DNA of 33,023 nt, from positions 1-33,023 of the IMG/VR virus record IMGVR_UViG_3300025687_000177. One strand, written 5' to 3'. This document shows positions 1,069 to 11,513 of the stretch, one piece after another (position 1 is the stretch's first letter; every line of letters begins with the position of its first letter). Source of the stretch: a virus. The translations under genes were made by a program, and so were the position numbers. The notes below the pieces were generated by a model. It saw nothing but the letters and a program-made list of their open reading frames with translations, made no database searches and had not been told where the DNA came from.

Positions 1069-1217
1069 CGCGGGCTCACCGGGTAGTGGCGGCCTCGGAG
1101 GTCGCGGAGGTAAATCAGCCGCCCGGCGACCGGCCGACGAGAGCGCCGGAGCGCCGCCAGGAGGCGCGCGGCGAGAGAGGGGCGGCGAAGGTCCGCCCGA
1201 GTGCGGTAGCGGGTCAC
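1065..1217 (-). CDS. Hypothetical basic protein, 50 aa
   Basis: The GTG at 1217 overlaps the TGA of the preceding Cys-rich gene (GTGA), with GGAGG six bases upstream inside that gene. The peptide is strongly basic, with many Arg, and ends GRLIYLRDLRGRHYPVSPR. The stop overlaps the next ATG at 1068. Start and stop overlaps on both sides plus a good ribosome binding site support translation. No family is recognised; the basic composition would fit nucleic-acid binding but this is a guess. Confidence 0.5.
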   Translation of the reverse strand: MTRYRTRADLRRPSLAARLLAALRRSRRPVAGRLIYLRDLRGRHYPVSPR

Positions 1218-1447
1218 CACTCACCTCCCTCGCCGTCGCAGTCGGGGCACTCCTCGGCGCCCTCGCACAGCGGGCAGCCGTCGTCCCCGTACAGCCGGTC
1301 GATCTCGTCGCTGCTCATGCCGTGGCAGCGCGGGCACCTGCGCGAGCCACCGCACGTCTCGCAGGTGTCCTCAAGGAAGGCTTCCATGCTCCCGCAAGGC
1401 GAGAGGCAGGTGCCGCGGAGACAGTAGGTAGTGCAGCCGCGCATCAC
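1214..1447 (-). CDS. Small Cys-rich protein with DnaJ-like CxxCxG motifs (copy A)
   Basis: This 77-residue paralogue of 776-1009 begins MMRGCTTYCLRGTCLSPCGS. It has CETCGGSRRCPRCHG, then the shared block MSSDEIDRLYGDDGCP, then CEGAEECPDCDGEGGEW. The knuckles are more regular than in copy B (CxxCxG twice, then CxxC). Zinc binding is inferred from spacing. ATG at 1447 overlaps the stop of the upstream gene as ATGA. The two copies are the same length and mostly identical, so this is a recent tandem duplication. Confidence 0.82.
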   Translation of the reverse strand: MMRGCTTYCLRGTCLSPCGSMEAFLEDTCETCGGSRRCPRCHGMSSDEIDRLYGDDGCPLCEGAEECPDCDGEGGEW

Positions 1448-2805: not shown

Positions 2806-3063
2806 CTAGTCGTCCAGCAGTGCGTCTTCGGCCTCTTCGGCCTCAAAAACCTCGTCCTCCAGCACGTCGATGACGTAGGGGGCGTCGTTGCGCACGAGCC
2901 CTGCCTCGAGGCGGCGGTGGACCGTCCGGTAACCGTAGCGGCGCGACCCGCGGGGGCCGACGTGCTCGGCCACGGGGAGGATGGCGCAGCCCGGGTTGCG
3001 GGTGATGTAGTCCAGGGCTTCGGCCATGCGGGGGCCGATGCGGGTGGGGGTGTTGGGGGTCAT
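2806..3063 (-). CDS. Small winged-helix-like protein, 85 aa
   Basis: I chose ATG 3063 because AGGGAAG lies about five bases upstream. A GTG at 3087 overlapping the preceding stop would add eight residues. The middle (MAEALDYITRNPGCAILPVA, then YGYRTVHRRLEAGLVRND) has the pattern of a small winged helix: a helix, a stretch where a recognition helix is expected, and a Gly-Leu-Val turn. The tail is very acidic (DVLEDEVFEAEEAEDALLDD). A DNA-binding role is a weak inference from this pattern. Confidence 0.73.
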   Translation of the reverse strand: MTPNTPTRIGPRMAEALDYITRNPGCAILPVAEHVGPRGSRRYGYRTVHRRLEAGLVRNDAPYVIDVLEDEVFEAEEAEDALLDD

Positions 3064-3083: not shown

Positions 3084-3308
3084 TCACTTCGCCACCGCCT
3101 TCCCGTCACGCAGAGTGACGGCCATCACCTTGCGCAGCTTCCCGTAGCGCACGAAGAAGCGCTCGACGCTGTTCTGCTGCAGGTCGTTCCGGTTCGCGTA
3201 GCGCCCGGTCACGCTGCAGCGGAAATCCTTGTCCGCGTTCAGGTCCTCGATGACGGCGCGCTTGCTGCTGTAGTCGCGCCCGTAGGCGGGGGCCAGAGTC
3301 AAGGTCAT
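3084..3308 (-). CDS. Conserved phage hypothetical protein, 74 aa
   Basis: ATG at 3308 has AGGAG nine bases upstream and a strong hairpin (3324-3343) just before that. The sequence begins MTLTLAPAYGRDYSSKRAVI and goes on to EDLNADKDFRCS. I recall small phage proteins of the form LxPxYGRDYKSxKAVxxDxxAxKDF, and this fits; their function is not known to me. It is the first gene of the leftward run that begins next to the gene-free array at 3309-3882, so its promoter is probably there. Confidence 0.8.
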   Translation of the reverse strand: MTLTLAPAYGRDYSSKRAVIEDLNADKDFRCSVTGRYANRNDLQQNSVERFFVRYGKLRKVMAVTLRDGKAVAK

Positions 3309-3377: not shown

Positions 3378-3425
3378 CCCTTGTTGTGCTTACGCTAAAT
3401 CCGCTGGTTTTCGGCGGCAATGGTT

Positions 3426-3457
3426 GTTTGTCAAGCGTTTGTCAAGCGTTTGTCAAG
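3426..3457. repeat. 11-bp tandem repeat x3 carrying TGTCAA (TTGACA on - strand)
   Basis: GTTTGTCAAGC is repeated at 3426, 3437 and 3448, the last copy ending slightly differently. Read on the - strand each unit holds TTGACA, the consensus -35 hexamer, so these may be stacked leftward -35 boxes or binding sites at one helical turn. The nearest -10-like box (TAGCGT, 3397-3392) is about 31 bp from the closest TTGACA, too far for an ordinary promoter. Confidence 0.85.
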
Positions 3458-3494
3458 ACCATAAACTCGGCTCGGTGGGGCTTAGTGGCGGGGT

Positions 3495-3699
3495 GTGCCG
3501 GCACTGTACCAGTTGGCCTGGTACATACTTTTGCTAGTCCTGATCGACCTTATAGACCCATGTACCAGTGTTCCACCTATTGAGAGGCATTTGAAAAATT
3601 CAAGTAAGGCGATTCTAGTGGTACACGTGAAAACGCGCCGGAAATGCCGATCAGCACTAGCAGAAGTCTGTACCAGCGGTCAGGCCGATGTGCCGGCAC
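3495..3699. promoter_or_regulatory. TGTACCAG site cluster bounded by two GTGCCGGCAC palindromes
   Basis: GTGCCGGCAC lies at 3495-3504 and again at 3690-3699. TGTACCAG and its complement form a perfect inverted repeat at 3505-3512/3518-3525 with a 5-bp spacer. Further copies are at 3561-3568, 3619-3625 (opposite strand, one mismatch) and 3669-3676. This looks like a set of operator half-sites for a dimeric DNA-binding protein. No candidate protein is identified in the window. Confidence 0.7.
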
Positions 3700-3742
3700 G
3701 ACACCCGGGGCGAACAAGGACGGCTCCTGTGGGTTGTGGGTC

Positions 3743-3779
3743 TGTCAAGAAAGTGTCAAGGGTGTCAAGCGCTTGTCAG
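3743..3779. repeat. Second TGTCAA cluster
   Basis: TGTCAA occurs at 3743, 3754 and 3763, with a fourth partial site (TTGTCAGG) at 3774. Spacings are 11, 9 and about 11. It mirrors the cluster at 3426-3457 on the other side of the TGTACCAG block. Confidence 0.8.
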
Positions 3780-3868
3780 GAGACCCCCGGAGGAGACCCC
3801 CGGAGGAGACCCCCGGAGGAGACCCCCGGAAGAGACCCCCGGAGGAGACCCCCGGAAAGGACCCCCGG
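3778..3868. repeat. 13-bp tandem repeat, 7 copies
   Basis: The unit is AGGAGACCCCCGG, with variants AAGAG and AAAGG in units 5 and 7. The array lies immediately downstream of the leftward gene 3883-4071 and abuts the second TGTCAA cluster. Since 13 is not a multiple of three, the array is not selected as protein sequence. Confidence 0.95.
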
Positions 3869-3882
3869 AAGAGCCGAGCCGC

Positions 3883-5775: not shown

Positions 5776-5829
5776 GGGCGCCCGGGAGGGCGCCCTGTCC
5801 GGTGGGGGTTTAGGCGAGGGGCAGGGCGG
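5776..5829. repeat. Hairpin plus 18-bp identity, copy 2 (pair with 3324-3377)
   Basis: Same hairpin (5776-5795) and same 18-mer (5812-5829) as copy 1. Here the 18-mer is the 3' end of the gene at 5810-6583. Confidence 0.85.
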
Positions 5830-6583
5830 GGTGGCCTTTGGTGCTTCGATGGGTCTGTAGTGCGTTCTGAGCCCTTCTAGTGCTCGAACCATGGGCCGCA
5901 AAGACCACGTGCGCACCTGGTCTAGCGCATGCCATACAATCCGCACAGCCGACTTCAACGCGTTGTGCCGGACAGGGCAGGACAGTAGTGCGGACGCGAC
6001 TAGCAGCGCGCTTAATTTCGCGCGCTTCGGTGTCGGTGAACGATTGTCCGTCCTTTGTGGGGACCACACTAGATACCGTGGTCCAACCCATGGCGCGCGC
6101 TTCGGCCGCGTCGGTGGGGTCGTCCAGCGACGCAACGCAATTGACGTTGCCCGGCAGGGACGCGGCCCACGCGGCGACGTCGGGGTCTCGCCACGCGTGC
6201 GTGTAGGTCCAGCCGACCAAATCCGGGCGGAGTTTATGTGCCCGCTTGATTGTGTCGCGGTAGACCGAGCCATCGGGCCCTACTACATCCCCGGAGACGT
6301 TCCAGCGTACAAGCGCGTCCTGAGGCAAGGCGAGAGCCCATGCGAGGGGATCAAACGTCGCGCCCTTACCGCCCGCTTCGATGGGTGCGCCGCGCCGACT
6401 GTGCAGTGCTACGTTACCTCCCTGCGCATAACAGCCGGCGTCAAGCAATGCGCAGGACGACGGGCACGTATGACCGACAGGTCGGTACGTGGCGAAGACG
6501 GCTCGACGCTTGTGGACGCCCCTCAATTTGTCATTACTGCTAGCACTTTTCGTGCCAAAGCCCATAACGGTAGTGTGGGTCAT
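5810..6583 (-). CDS. Gp88/DUF7227-like phage protein, 257 aa
   Basis: ATG at 6583 with GGAGA nine bases upstream. The N-terminal part contains ATYRPVGHTCPSSCALLDAG followed by CYAQGGN. A CPxSCxLLxxGCYA cluster near the N-terminus is typical of phage proteins annotated as gene product 88 or DUF7227. Further on come VRWNVSGDVVGPDG, an alternating beta/alpha pattern (LVGWTYTHAWRD; VNCVASLDDPTDA) and a C-terminal CPAQxxxxxxCADCMAC cluster. The Cys clusters and barrel-like pattern suggest a metal or Fe-S site, but the biochemical role is not established. Its codons look less GC-rich than its neighbours, which may reflect transfer. It is the first leftward gene from the divergent region at 6584-6773. 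Confidence 0.78.
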   Translation of the reverse strand: MTHTTVMGFGTKSASSNDKLRGVHKRRAVFATYRPVGHTCPSSCALLDAGCYAQGGNVALHSRRGAPIEAGGKGATFDPLAWALALPQDALVRWNVSGDVVGPDGSVYRDTIKRAHKLRPDLVGWTYTHAWRDPDVAAWAASLPGNVNCVASLDDPTDAAEARAMGWTTVSSVVPTKDGQSFTDTEAREIKRAASRVRTTVLPCPAQRVEVGCADCMACARPGAHVVFAAHGSSTRRAQNALQTHRSTKGHPALPLA

Positions 6584-6773: not shown

Positions 6774-9164
6774 GTGGGCACGCAGCACCAGATCGAGGCC
6801 GCGCAGGACCTCGCGATCAACCACCTCTACCACTTCGTCCGCGCGATGTGGTCGGTGGTCGAGCCCTCCCGCAAGTTCGAGACCAACTGGCACATCGAGG
6901 CGATGTGCTGGGAGATCGAGAAGATGGGGGACGGGCTCACGGACGGCACCACGGACCGACTGACGATCAACGTCCCGCCCGGCTCCATGAAGAGCCTCGC
7001 GGTCAGCGTCTTCCGCCCGTCCTGGAAGACGCTCCGCAACCCGGGCCTCGTCAGCGTCTACCTCGCGCACACCGAGGGGCTCAGCAAGCGGGACGCGCAG
7101 AAGTACCGAGACATCGTCAAGAGCCCCCGCTACCGCTCGCTCGTGGCCAGGCACGTCAAGAACCTGTGCCGCGAGCTCCGCGAGCTCGAGCCCGAGGCCC
7201 GCGAGCGGCGCAGGCTGGAGATCGGGGCCTACAACAACCTCATCCCCAGCACCTTCGGCAAGACGCGCCGCCAGGCCGAGCCCGTGTTCGACAAGTACGT
7301 GCAGCGCCCGCTCGAGGGCTCGTCTGCGCGCAACACCCACCGGGACTCGAGCACGCCCGCCGTGCCGAGCCTGATCTGGAGCATCCGCAAGGACCAGGAC
7401 CAGTTGCTCAACATGGGCACAACCCTGCGCGGCGCCCGCATCGCCCAGCCCATCAAGGCGGGCCTGACCGGCAAGCGCGGCGACGACCTTGTGATCGACG
7501 ACCCCCACGACGTCGCGGACGCGATCGAGGGCAGCGCCGAGACCATCGCCAAGCGCATGGACGAGCGCGTGACCCGCGTCGACCAGGTGGCGAGCACCCG
7601 CCTGAACGACCAGCGCTACGGCAAGCACTCCTTCACGCTCATCATGCAGCGTGTGCACGTGCTCGACCTCGCCGGCCGCGAGATCGAGCGCACCCGCGAG
7701 GCGATGGCGTACTGGAAGGCGCTGGCCGCCTTCGAGCGCCACCGCGACGAGGCCGAGGCCAAGGCTAGGTCGGAAGCCGAGGCCGCCGAAGCGAAGGCCG
7801 AGGAGGGCGCCCCCGGCGCCCCCGGCGCCGAGGAGAGCGGGACCGCCTACGAGCGCGCCTACGCCGACGCGCTTCGCAGGCACATGGGCGACGCACAGGA
7901 GCCCCCGAAGCCGAAGCACGCGGACGGCTACAGGCGCAGCCGCGTGGTCACCATCCCCATGCGGGCGGTGGACCCGAGGAAGTTGACGAAGCGGGACGAT
8001 CCCATCCCCTACGAGTGGGACCCTAGGTGGTCGGTGCCGGTCCACGCCGAGGGCGCCGCCGCGGAGGCCGAGGCCGAAGAGGGCAAGGTCCTAGCGGTCG
8101 TCGCCGCCGCCGCCGCCGCGGACGTCAGGGCCGCACTGGATGGCTGGTACACCCCCGAGGGCGGTCTGCCATCCGAGCTCCGGCAGAGGCAAGAGGCGTG
8201 GGCGAGGGCGGAGCTCGGCCTCGTCACCAACGCGCTGGGCGACATGGTGCCCGTCGATACCGCTCCGGCCTACTACCTGACCTACGACGGGCCCAGGGGC
8301 CTCGGCGCGCTGATGGACCCCGGGCGCATGCCGGAGTACACCGTCCGTTCGCTTGAGGCTCGACTGGAGGACCAGGCCGAGGCGCAGTTGCAGCAGAACC
8401 CCCGCCCCACCAAGGGCGCGATGTTCGACAAGCCGCTGAAGAACTGCCGGAAGTACTTCGAGCACCCCGCAGTGATCGCCGCGCGCTGCGACCTGTTGTT
8501 CTCGGTGGACGCCTCGTTCGGCTCGGAGAAGACGACGGCGAGCAAGGTGGCGCTGACGTTGTGGGGTCGTCCGCTGGACAACAACGACGCCGGGCTGAAC
8601 CCGAAGGACATGTACTTCCTTGACCGCCTAGCCCAGCGCATGACCTTCCTCGACACTCTGGCCGCGCTGGCGGGCTGGATGGAGAAGTGGCCGACGGTCC
8701 GGCTCAAGCTCGTCGAGGCCAAGGCCAACGGACCGGCCATCATCGAGGTGCTCAACCAGCACTTCGCCGGCGTCGTGCCCTTCGACCCAGGGCGCTCAAG
8801 CAAGGAGGAGCGAGCCTCGGTCATGGCGCCCTACATGGACTCGGGCGACATTTGGGTCCCGGCGGGGCACTACAACGACACCACCATCGCCCGGAACCCC
8901 CACACGCCGTGGTGGTGGGGCGAGGGCGCGGCCCAGGAGGAGTTCGCCACGTTCCCGAAGGGCCGCAGCGACGACACCGTGGATAGCGCCGCCAATGCGG
9001 TCATCTACATGACGTCGGGGCGCATGGGCTCGCGAGGGTACTCCCTGCAGTACCTGGTCGACGAGGACCAGGAGAACTTCCTGCCGGGAGAGACGGAGGG
9101 GCCCGCCTTCATGGGCCTGGCGGGGTTCCTGGGGCGGCGGCCGGTGGGGTGGCTGAAGGGGTGA
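6774..9164 (+). CDS. Terminase large subunit with long internal insertion, 796 aa
   Basis: This is the ATP-driven DNA packaging motor with a headful or site-specific nuclease. The N-terminal ATPase has a Walker A variant VPPGSMKS (residues 67-74) and Walker B-like LVIDDPHD (about 239-246). The C-terminal RNase H-like nuclease shows LLFSVDASFGSEKT (about 572-585), a central LVEAKANGPAI motif and GRSDDTVDSAANAV near the end. Usual length is about 450-600 residues. The excess lies between the two domains, about residues 300-500, and includes two Ala/Glu-rich stretches probably forming coiled coils. I see no intein motifs. I use the GTG at 6774 because it follows a TACGCT box and gives the conserved N-terminus. 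No small subunit gene is recognised. Confidence 0.95.
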   Translation: MGTQHQIEAAQDLAINHLYHFVRAMWSVVEPSRKFETNWHIEAMCWEIEKMGDGLTDGTTDRLTINVPPGSMKSLAVSVFRPSWKTLRNPGLVSVYLAHTEGLSKRDAQKYRDIVKSPRYRSLVARHVKNLCRELRELEPEARERRRLEIGAYNNLIPSTFGKTRRQAEPVFDKYVQRPLEGSSARNTHRDSSTPAVPSLIWSIRKDQDQLLNMGTTLRGARIAQPIKAGLTGKRGDDLVIDDPHDVADAIEGSAETIAKRMDERVTRVDQVASTRLNDQRYGKHSFTLIMQRVHVLDLAGREIERTREAMAYWKALAAFERHRDEAEAKARSEAEAAEAKAEEGAPGAPGAEESGTAYERAYADALRRHMGDAQEPPKPKHADGYRRSRVVTIPMRAVDPRKLTKRDDPIPYEWDPRWSVPVHAEGAAAEAEAEEGKVLAVVAAAAAADVRAALDGWYTPEGGLPSELRQRQEAWARAELGLVTNALGDMVPVDTAPAYYLTYDGPRGLGALMDPGRMPEYTVRSLEARLEDQAEAQLQQNPRPTKGAMFDKPLKNCRKYFEHPAVIAARCDLLFSVDASFGSEKTTASKVALTLWGRPLDNNDAGLNPKDMYFLDRLAQRMTFLDTLAALAGWMEKWPTVRLKLVEAKANGPAIIEVLNQHFAGVVPFDPGRSSKEERASVMAPYMDSGDIWVPAGHYNDTTIARNPHTPWWWGEGAAQEEFATFPKGRSDDTVDSAANAVIYMTSGRMGSRGYSLQYLVDEDQENFLPGETEGPAFMGLAGFLGRRPVGWLKG

Positions 9165-11437: not shown

Positions 11438-11513
11438 TGGTGTTCCCGGCAGGAGTCGAACCTGCGACCGTCCGCTTAGGAGGCGGGCGCTCTATCCGCT
11501 GAGCTACGGGAAC
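11438..11513 (-). tRNA. tRNA-Arg (anticodon CCU), CCA encoded
   Basis: Read on the - strand: acceptor GTTCCCG pairs with CGGGAAC, then discriminator A and an encoded CCA (11440-11438). The D arm GCTC...GAGC, the anticodon loop CTCCTAA (11482-11476) with anticodon CCT at 11480-11478, and the T arm GCAGG-TTCGACT-CCTGC are all normal. The first pair of the anticodon stem is a C/A mismatch. It reads AGG codons, which the virion genes use (for example several in terminase). A -10-like TAGCGT lies at 11530-11525. Confidence 0.95.

Follow-up and report, generated by a model that had tools for sequence, protein, structure and literature searches.

Positions 3426 to 3785 of the virus record IMGVR_UViG_3300025687_000177 (IMG/VR) form a near-dyad of short DNA sites centered at about position 3597, in which two mirrored composite sites and two outer arrays of TGTCAAG units enclose an AT-rich core. 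The window, i.e., the whole public record of 33,023 bases (68% GC), contains this arrangement once. The locus is tentatively interpreted as a phage nucleoprotein-assembly site of the replication-origin type. This interpretation is weakly held and is ranked first because an easily melted core lies between mirrored arms, the sites occupy a single location, and divergent genes are absent. Statements about individual sites are based on one sequence, and motif uniqueness refers to counts within the contig. The ranking of origin, operator region, and phage attachment site (attP) is based on layout and on what the fragment lacks, and might be altered by the missing part of the genome.

On each side of the center, the palindrome GTGCCGGCAC is followed by exactly 13 unconserved bases and then by CTGGTACAnACTTnTGCTAGTnCTGATCG, inverted relative to the other side. 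TGTACCAG is found at 3505 (+), 3518 (-), 3561 (+), and 3669 (+). Every site listed in a preliminary description of this DNA is present, and their clustering exceeds chance; the sites given there at 3561, 3619 (reverse), and 3669 exist, but the reverse copy is TGTACCAC at 3618 to 3625 on the minus strand, with one mismatch. The right-hand TGTCAA cluster (3743, 3754, and 3763) was likewise confirmed and gains a degenerate fourth unit, TGTCAG, at 3774. The outer arrays, centered 154.5 and 163.5 base pairs (bp) from 3597, are direct rather than inverted repeats; the symmetry is therefore incomplete, with a dyad core and directional flanks. Open reading frames overlapping the locus have a GC content at third codon positions of 0.56 to 0.75, compared with 0.83 to 0.95 in most real genes of the contig, and the locus was judged non-coding for this reason, in agreement with its earlier description as gene free.

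The two arms (3495 to 3546 and 3648 to 3699) form an ungapped inverted repeat with 37 of 52 positions identical, or 36 of 39 outside the 13-bp spacer. Identity by segment is 10/10 in the palindrome, 1/13 in the next 13 bases, and 26/29 in the last 29 bases. Among arms within 400 bp of each other, no other ungapped inverted pair in the contig matches as well (next best, 34). The gapped local score of one half against the reverse complement of the other is 73, with a maximum of 42 in 500 dinucleotide shuffles; the ungapped match is the clearer statistic, because the next best unshuffled window of the contig, in GC-rich coding DNA, reaches a gapped score of 62. A spacer constant in length but not in sequence is the trace expected of two protein contacts at a fixed distance and may reflect such contacts, or alternatively an old inverted duplication.

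As RNA, the 205-nucleotide segment folds far better than shuffled sequences on either strand (z scores of -5.6 and -7.3), and the DNA fold of the locus also stands out (z = -3.9). These scores reflect the strong inverted repeat and are not proof of RNA. They would also suit a leftward structured RNA, a packaging (cos/pac) site about 3 kb before the terminase gene, or a 205-bp insertion with terminal inverted repeats, a group of readings that is quite improbable even taken together. Palindromic arm ends and further TGTACC copies beyond the paired arms favor DNA sites, and no Rfam family was found for the locus. Against an insertion of the miniature inverted-repeat transposable element or insertion sequence type, no target-site duplication is visible flanking 3495/3699, and a DNA scan of viral contigs with the 29-bp arm found no further copy. 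A protelomerase-type telomere was rejected, since the center has no long perfect palindrome.

Duplex stability reaches its contig-wide minimum within the locus. The mean stacking energy of the 100 bp from 3518 is -1.286 kcal/mol per step, compared with -1.631 ± 0.058 for the contig, about 6 standard deviations from the mean and the weakest value anywhere (next separate stretch, -1.387). GC content is also at its minimum here (0.41 in the 100 bp from 3521, versus about 0.68 for the contig), falling to 0.38 in 50-bp windows. The earlier picture of a clustered, near-symmetric multisite locus bracketing an AT-richer core thus holds, with the GC minimum lying between the arms.

The motifs are concentrated in the same place. 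The window contains five copies of TGTACCAG (0.23 expected; none of 100 shuffles reaches five), four of them inside the locus, and two copies of GTGCCGGCAC (0.19 expected; two in 2 of 100 shuffles), both within 205 bp. TGTCAAG occurs seven times (2.1 expected), with six copies inside the locus, and three copies at 11-bp spacing anywhere have a probability of about 2e-9 under a Markov model, for a motif picked after the fact. The shorter TGTCAA is not enriched by count alone; its clustering is. A similar motif density elsewhere, which the preliminary description had named as counting against the arrangement, was not found in the contig. Confinement of the motifs to one locus is expected of an origin and less so of a regulator that acts on many promoters through an operator at each.

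Table 1. Features of the locus and of the adjoining leftward operon
Feature	Position	Strand	Remarks
Outer left array	3426..3457		Three TGTCAAG units, exact 11-bp period (GTTTGTCAAGC x2.9); TGTCAA at 3429/3440/3451 (spacing 11, 11); minus strand reads CTTGACA
Left palindrome GTGCCGGCAC	3495..3504		
Left composite inverted-repeat arm	3495..3546	+	Palindrome, N13, CTGGTACATACTTTTGCTAGTCCTGATCG
Perfect inverted pair TGTACCAG-TTGGC-CTGGTACA	3505..3525		Alternative reading TGTACCA-GTTGGCC-TGGTACA, 7-7-7
AT-rich core	3518..3617		Least stable 100 bp of contig
Inner TGTACCAG site	3561..3568	+	
TTGAAAAATTCAA at center of symmetry (3597)	3591..3603		Midpoint of both palindromes and both arms
Inner reverse site GTGGTACA	3618..3625	-	TGTACCAC, one mismatch
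Right composite inverted-repeat arm	3648..3699	-	Includes TGTACCAG at 3669-3676
Right palindrome GTGCCGGCAC	3690..3699		
Outer right array	3743..3780		Three TGTCAAG plus degenerate TGTCAGG; spacing 11/9/11; orientation as left array
13-bp tandem repeat AGGAGACCCCCGG x7.4	3778..3873		Directly beside right array; may or may not belong
Second gene of leftward operon	2806..3063	-	Weak winged-helix lead
First gene of leftward operon, beside locus	3084..3308	-	74-amino-acid TPAYGRDY-type protein, function unknown

If the locus is of the origin type, phage proteins of at least two specificities would bind the two mirrored composite sites (each a palindrome, a 13-bp spacer, and a 29-bp element containing TGTACCAG) and the two 11-bp-phased TGTCAAG arrays. 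Protein would be loaded onto the flanks through the arrays, and the inner dyad would keep the complex symmetric; the core between the arms, being weakly paired, could then be opened for the start of replication. We infer protein binding, its two specificities, and strand opening and replication as output from the arrangement described above. The locus has the repeated sites beside an AT-rich, low-stability region that characterize iteron-type origins. In the lambda origin, initiator-bound iterons lie beside an AT-rich region needed for unwinding (PMC7466680). Both combine, at a single locus, repeated sites of the initiator type with an adjoining AT-rich stretch that unwinds easily. In lambda, the iterons bound by the O protein flank the AT region on a single side and are part of the O gene, whereas the sites described here lie in mirror image to the left and right of the core, are non-coding, and are spaced by one helical turn, with no recognized initiator gene.

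Several results weigh against an origin. No initiator or helicase was recognized among the flanking genes with Pfam and PHROGs, although one may lie outside the fragment, and no DnaA-box-like sequence was found in the locus. Classical initiators usually have iterons spaced by about two helical turns, versus one here. Cumulative GC skew, proposed earlier as a check, changes direction not at the locus but at about 6.4 kb, together with gene orientation. Furthermore, no relative of the site was found in the phage, plasmid, and viral collections searched. Because the cognate initiator gene was not recognized and is possibly in the missing part of the genome, the locus is described as working like an origin rather than as a member of a known origin class. 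The sites could represent a new symmetric type of origin or switch, with one complex assembled over the AT-rich core on the two direct arrays in 11-bp phase and the two mirrored composite sites, and with binding proteins of unknown families, but this is unlikely.

Both flanking gene sets run leftward, and the symmetry therefore does not serve divergent promoters. A series of small leftward genes does begin directly downstream of the locus, and for this reason a long-range operator or enhancer of the operon starting at 3308 is ranked second, as a possible but rather unlikely explanation. The TGTACCAG inverted pairs and TGTCAAG arrays would then bind one or two phage regulators, and looping between the arrays, whose first units are separated by 314 bp or about 29.9 helical turns, would control a promoter near 3392. 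On the minus strand, TAGCGT lies 31 bp after the left array, the offset of a modest -10-like enrichment seen elsewhere, but it fits a -10 element only as TAnnnT and is without the extended TGn of most other non-AT-rich cases. The second gene of the operon may encode a winged-helix protein: its product has 38% identity over about 54 amino acids to a protein annotated as winged helix-turn-helix (E = 1e-3), with no Pfam match, and its fold model (pLDDT, a model confidence score, of 53) was uninformative and too poor for use. Against an operator, a single leftward promoter needs no 360-bp dyad, and the full motifs are absent from the other intergenic regions of the contig.

A possible parallel for an operator region is offered by another GC-rich phage contig (L013), in which a TGTACCAG-N5-CTGGTACA pair and two more TGTAC-type pairs lie in an apparently non-coding stretch. 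However, TGTACCAG-N5 pairs across viral contigs appear to be at chance level overall (10 matches), and the likeness may thus be a coincidence. The three inverted pairs of L013 lie at 6350 to 6465, before a probable small-terminase gene, and two of them are of the TGTACCAGCTGAC type with the 5-bp spacing found in the window.

Stoperators of cluster A mycobacteriophages share with the locus the 3' half TGTCAAG, a non-coding location, and a single orientation. They have the 13-bp consensus GGTGGMTGTCAAG in L5 and are scattered, with 24 in that genome (PMC3029335). The units described here overlap at 11 bp, lie in one locus, and do not have the GGTGGM half; a stoperator system, for which scattered 13-bp GGTGGMTGTCAAG-type sites are expected, fits poorly with six of the seven TGTCAAG copies lying in one locus with an 11-bp period.

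Read on the opposite strand, the arrays resemble a more widespread pattern. Three TTGACA copies at exactly 11 bp were found in 101 stretches of viral contigs, where by a rough estimate a handful are expected from base composition, and three CTTGACA-n4 units were found in 39 bacterial or archaeal genome stretches. Arrays of at least three TTGACA at exactly 11 bp (loci L021-L121 and L203-L241) are shared by unrelated phages and by bacterial contigs. Across 110 non-redundant arrays, hexamers resembling a -10 element are overrepresented 18 and 31 bases past the last unit (9 each versus 2.1; P of about 0.02, corrected over all offsets), and several of the 31-bp cases have an extended TGn-TATACT-like element. 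These sequences suggest a recurrent tandem-site promoter layout. Most of the phage arrays are without a dyad and look promoter or regulator related, and they did not identify the locus described here. Membership of the left array in this layout is doubtful, as its TAGCGT at 31 bp has no TGn. The TTGACA units of the locus seem not to be ordinary -35 boxes, with no TAnnnT at 16 to 19 bp.

The inverted pair at 3505 to 3525 can also be read as TGTACCA-GTTGGCC-TGGTACA, a perfect 7-7-7 layout resembling the core of an attP with a 7-bp overlap, the likeness being one of layout only. With this 21-bp core-like site and phased arrays on both sides, an attP was ranked third and is held to be unlikely, kept down by the missing integrase and tRNA piece. 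This reading is absent from the preliminary description, which had named an origin with iterons, a multi-operator switch, and a partition-like site. A tyrosine integrase encoded outside the fragment would use the TGTCAAG arrays as arm-type sites, and the other TGTACC sites would bind accessory proteins. As in lambda-family attP, two arm-like clusters in one-turn helical phase surround the core-like site at a single locus. The left array lies 58 to 86 bp from the core center, close to the distance of the lambda P' arm. The total length is comparable to that of the lambda att site, which spans 240 bp with core- and arm-type sites (PMC4880445). Integrase genes normally adjoin attP, but no tyrosine or large serine recombinase (PF00589 or PF07508) was found in the contig. 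The core of an attP is shared with a host attB, which often coincides with a tRNA gene end, and no tRNA fragment was found in the locus. Neither the mirrored 52-bp arms nor the two GTGCCGGCAC palindromes would be expected in an attP. Among the TTGACA triplet loci from viral contigs, only two have an integrase-like motif within 3 kb, as matched by regular expression only. Three matches resembling integration host factor sites fall inside TGTCAAG units and merely restate those units. A XerCD dif-like site was rejected, since a loose 28-bp dif-like pattern is unmatched in the locus and the contig.

The 11-bp period also recalls plasmid-type centromeres, in which two iteron clusters are bound by a ParR-like protein; a known 22-bp centromere fragment comprises two iterons, and its period therefore matches the spacing here. 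Plasmid R1 parC likewise has two direct-repeat clusters of 11-bp period around a central region. However, R1 has five units per cluster rather than three, parC adjoins its genes, and no ParM, ParR, or ParA-like protein was recognized with Pfam and PHROGs among the flanking proteins scanned. A centromere would also leave the large inner dyad unexplained and is very improbable. The preliminary description had noted no matching binding protein in the window. No integrase was found in the contig, and no replication or partition protein was recognized.

Searches for relatives gave little. BLAST of the locus found no match in phages, and three Rhizobium matches in plasmids (35 bp within an oxidoreductase gene; E = 0.3) were dismissed as chance, as was the single viral contig (L202) matching palindrome-N13-CTGGTACA in which the remainder of the locus is missing. 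When viral contigs were scanned with peptide patterns, one match at 34% was obtained for the DUF7227 protein and none for the terminase; scans for the major head protein returned none in viral contigs or bacterial genomes. None of 68 homologues of the adjacent 74-amino-acid gene (37 to 56% identity) has the array upstream. These loci have a sole TTGACA or TGTCAA pair at 9 to 12 bp, situated downstream of where the gene begins (L157), and four TGTCAA copies about 400 bp upstream in L147 have a 13-bp spacing, which differs from the 11-bp layout. These comparisons indicate no more than that the array is not a fixed companion of the 74-amino-acid gene family, the phages being too distant to show loss.

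The contig represents an uncharacterized, deeply divergent, GC-rich phage with a contractile tail (a myovirus) and is probably an incomplete fragment of its genome; the record lists neither completeness nor end repeats. Terminase, portal, protease, major head protein, sheath, tape measure, and baseplate genes lie on the plus strand from 6.7 kb, and the first 6.6 kb contain small genes on the minus strand, mostly of unknown function. Identity to known phages is about 28 to 38%, in pieces, for the terminase, 22% for the portal, and 28% across one third of the length for the head protein, and no near DNA match was found for the first 25 kb. By these alignments, the phage is only remotely related to those known. 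The terminase large subunit (6774 to 9164; 796 amino acids) matches known terminases in two blocks (residues of about 18 to 301 and 462 to 751), separated by an Ala/Glu-rich stretch of about 160 amino acids. A tRNA-Arg (CCT) gene (11438 to 11513, minus strand) lies inside the structural gene region.

The locus itself sits between the gene for the 74-amino-acid protein and a possible 62-amino-acid membrane-protein gene (end 3883), both leftward. PAYGRDY is invariant in the 74-amino-acid protein, and 208 loci of viral contigs with widely differing GC content encode relatives. In one of these (L018), the gene adjoins that for a DUF7227/GP88-like protein, a family also present in the window at 5810 to 6583. 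Two paralogous, cysteine-rich 77-amino-acid proteins, zinc-ribbon-like by eye, are encoded at 776 to 1009 and 1214 to 1447 (minus strand), and eight copies of a 21-bp tandem repeat (GGGTTGCTCTGCCTGAAGGGC) at 554 to 720 lie directly upstream of the leftward gene at 220 to 540.

If the locus is an origin or a switch, it would provide a compact and well-bounded target for studying the start of replication or early-gene control in a divergent, GC-rich myovirus. TGTCAAG in 11-bp phase and the mirrored TGTACCAG composite are ready baits for the proteins that may bind them.
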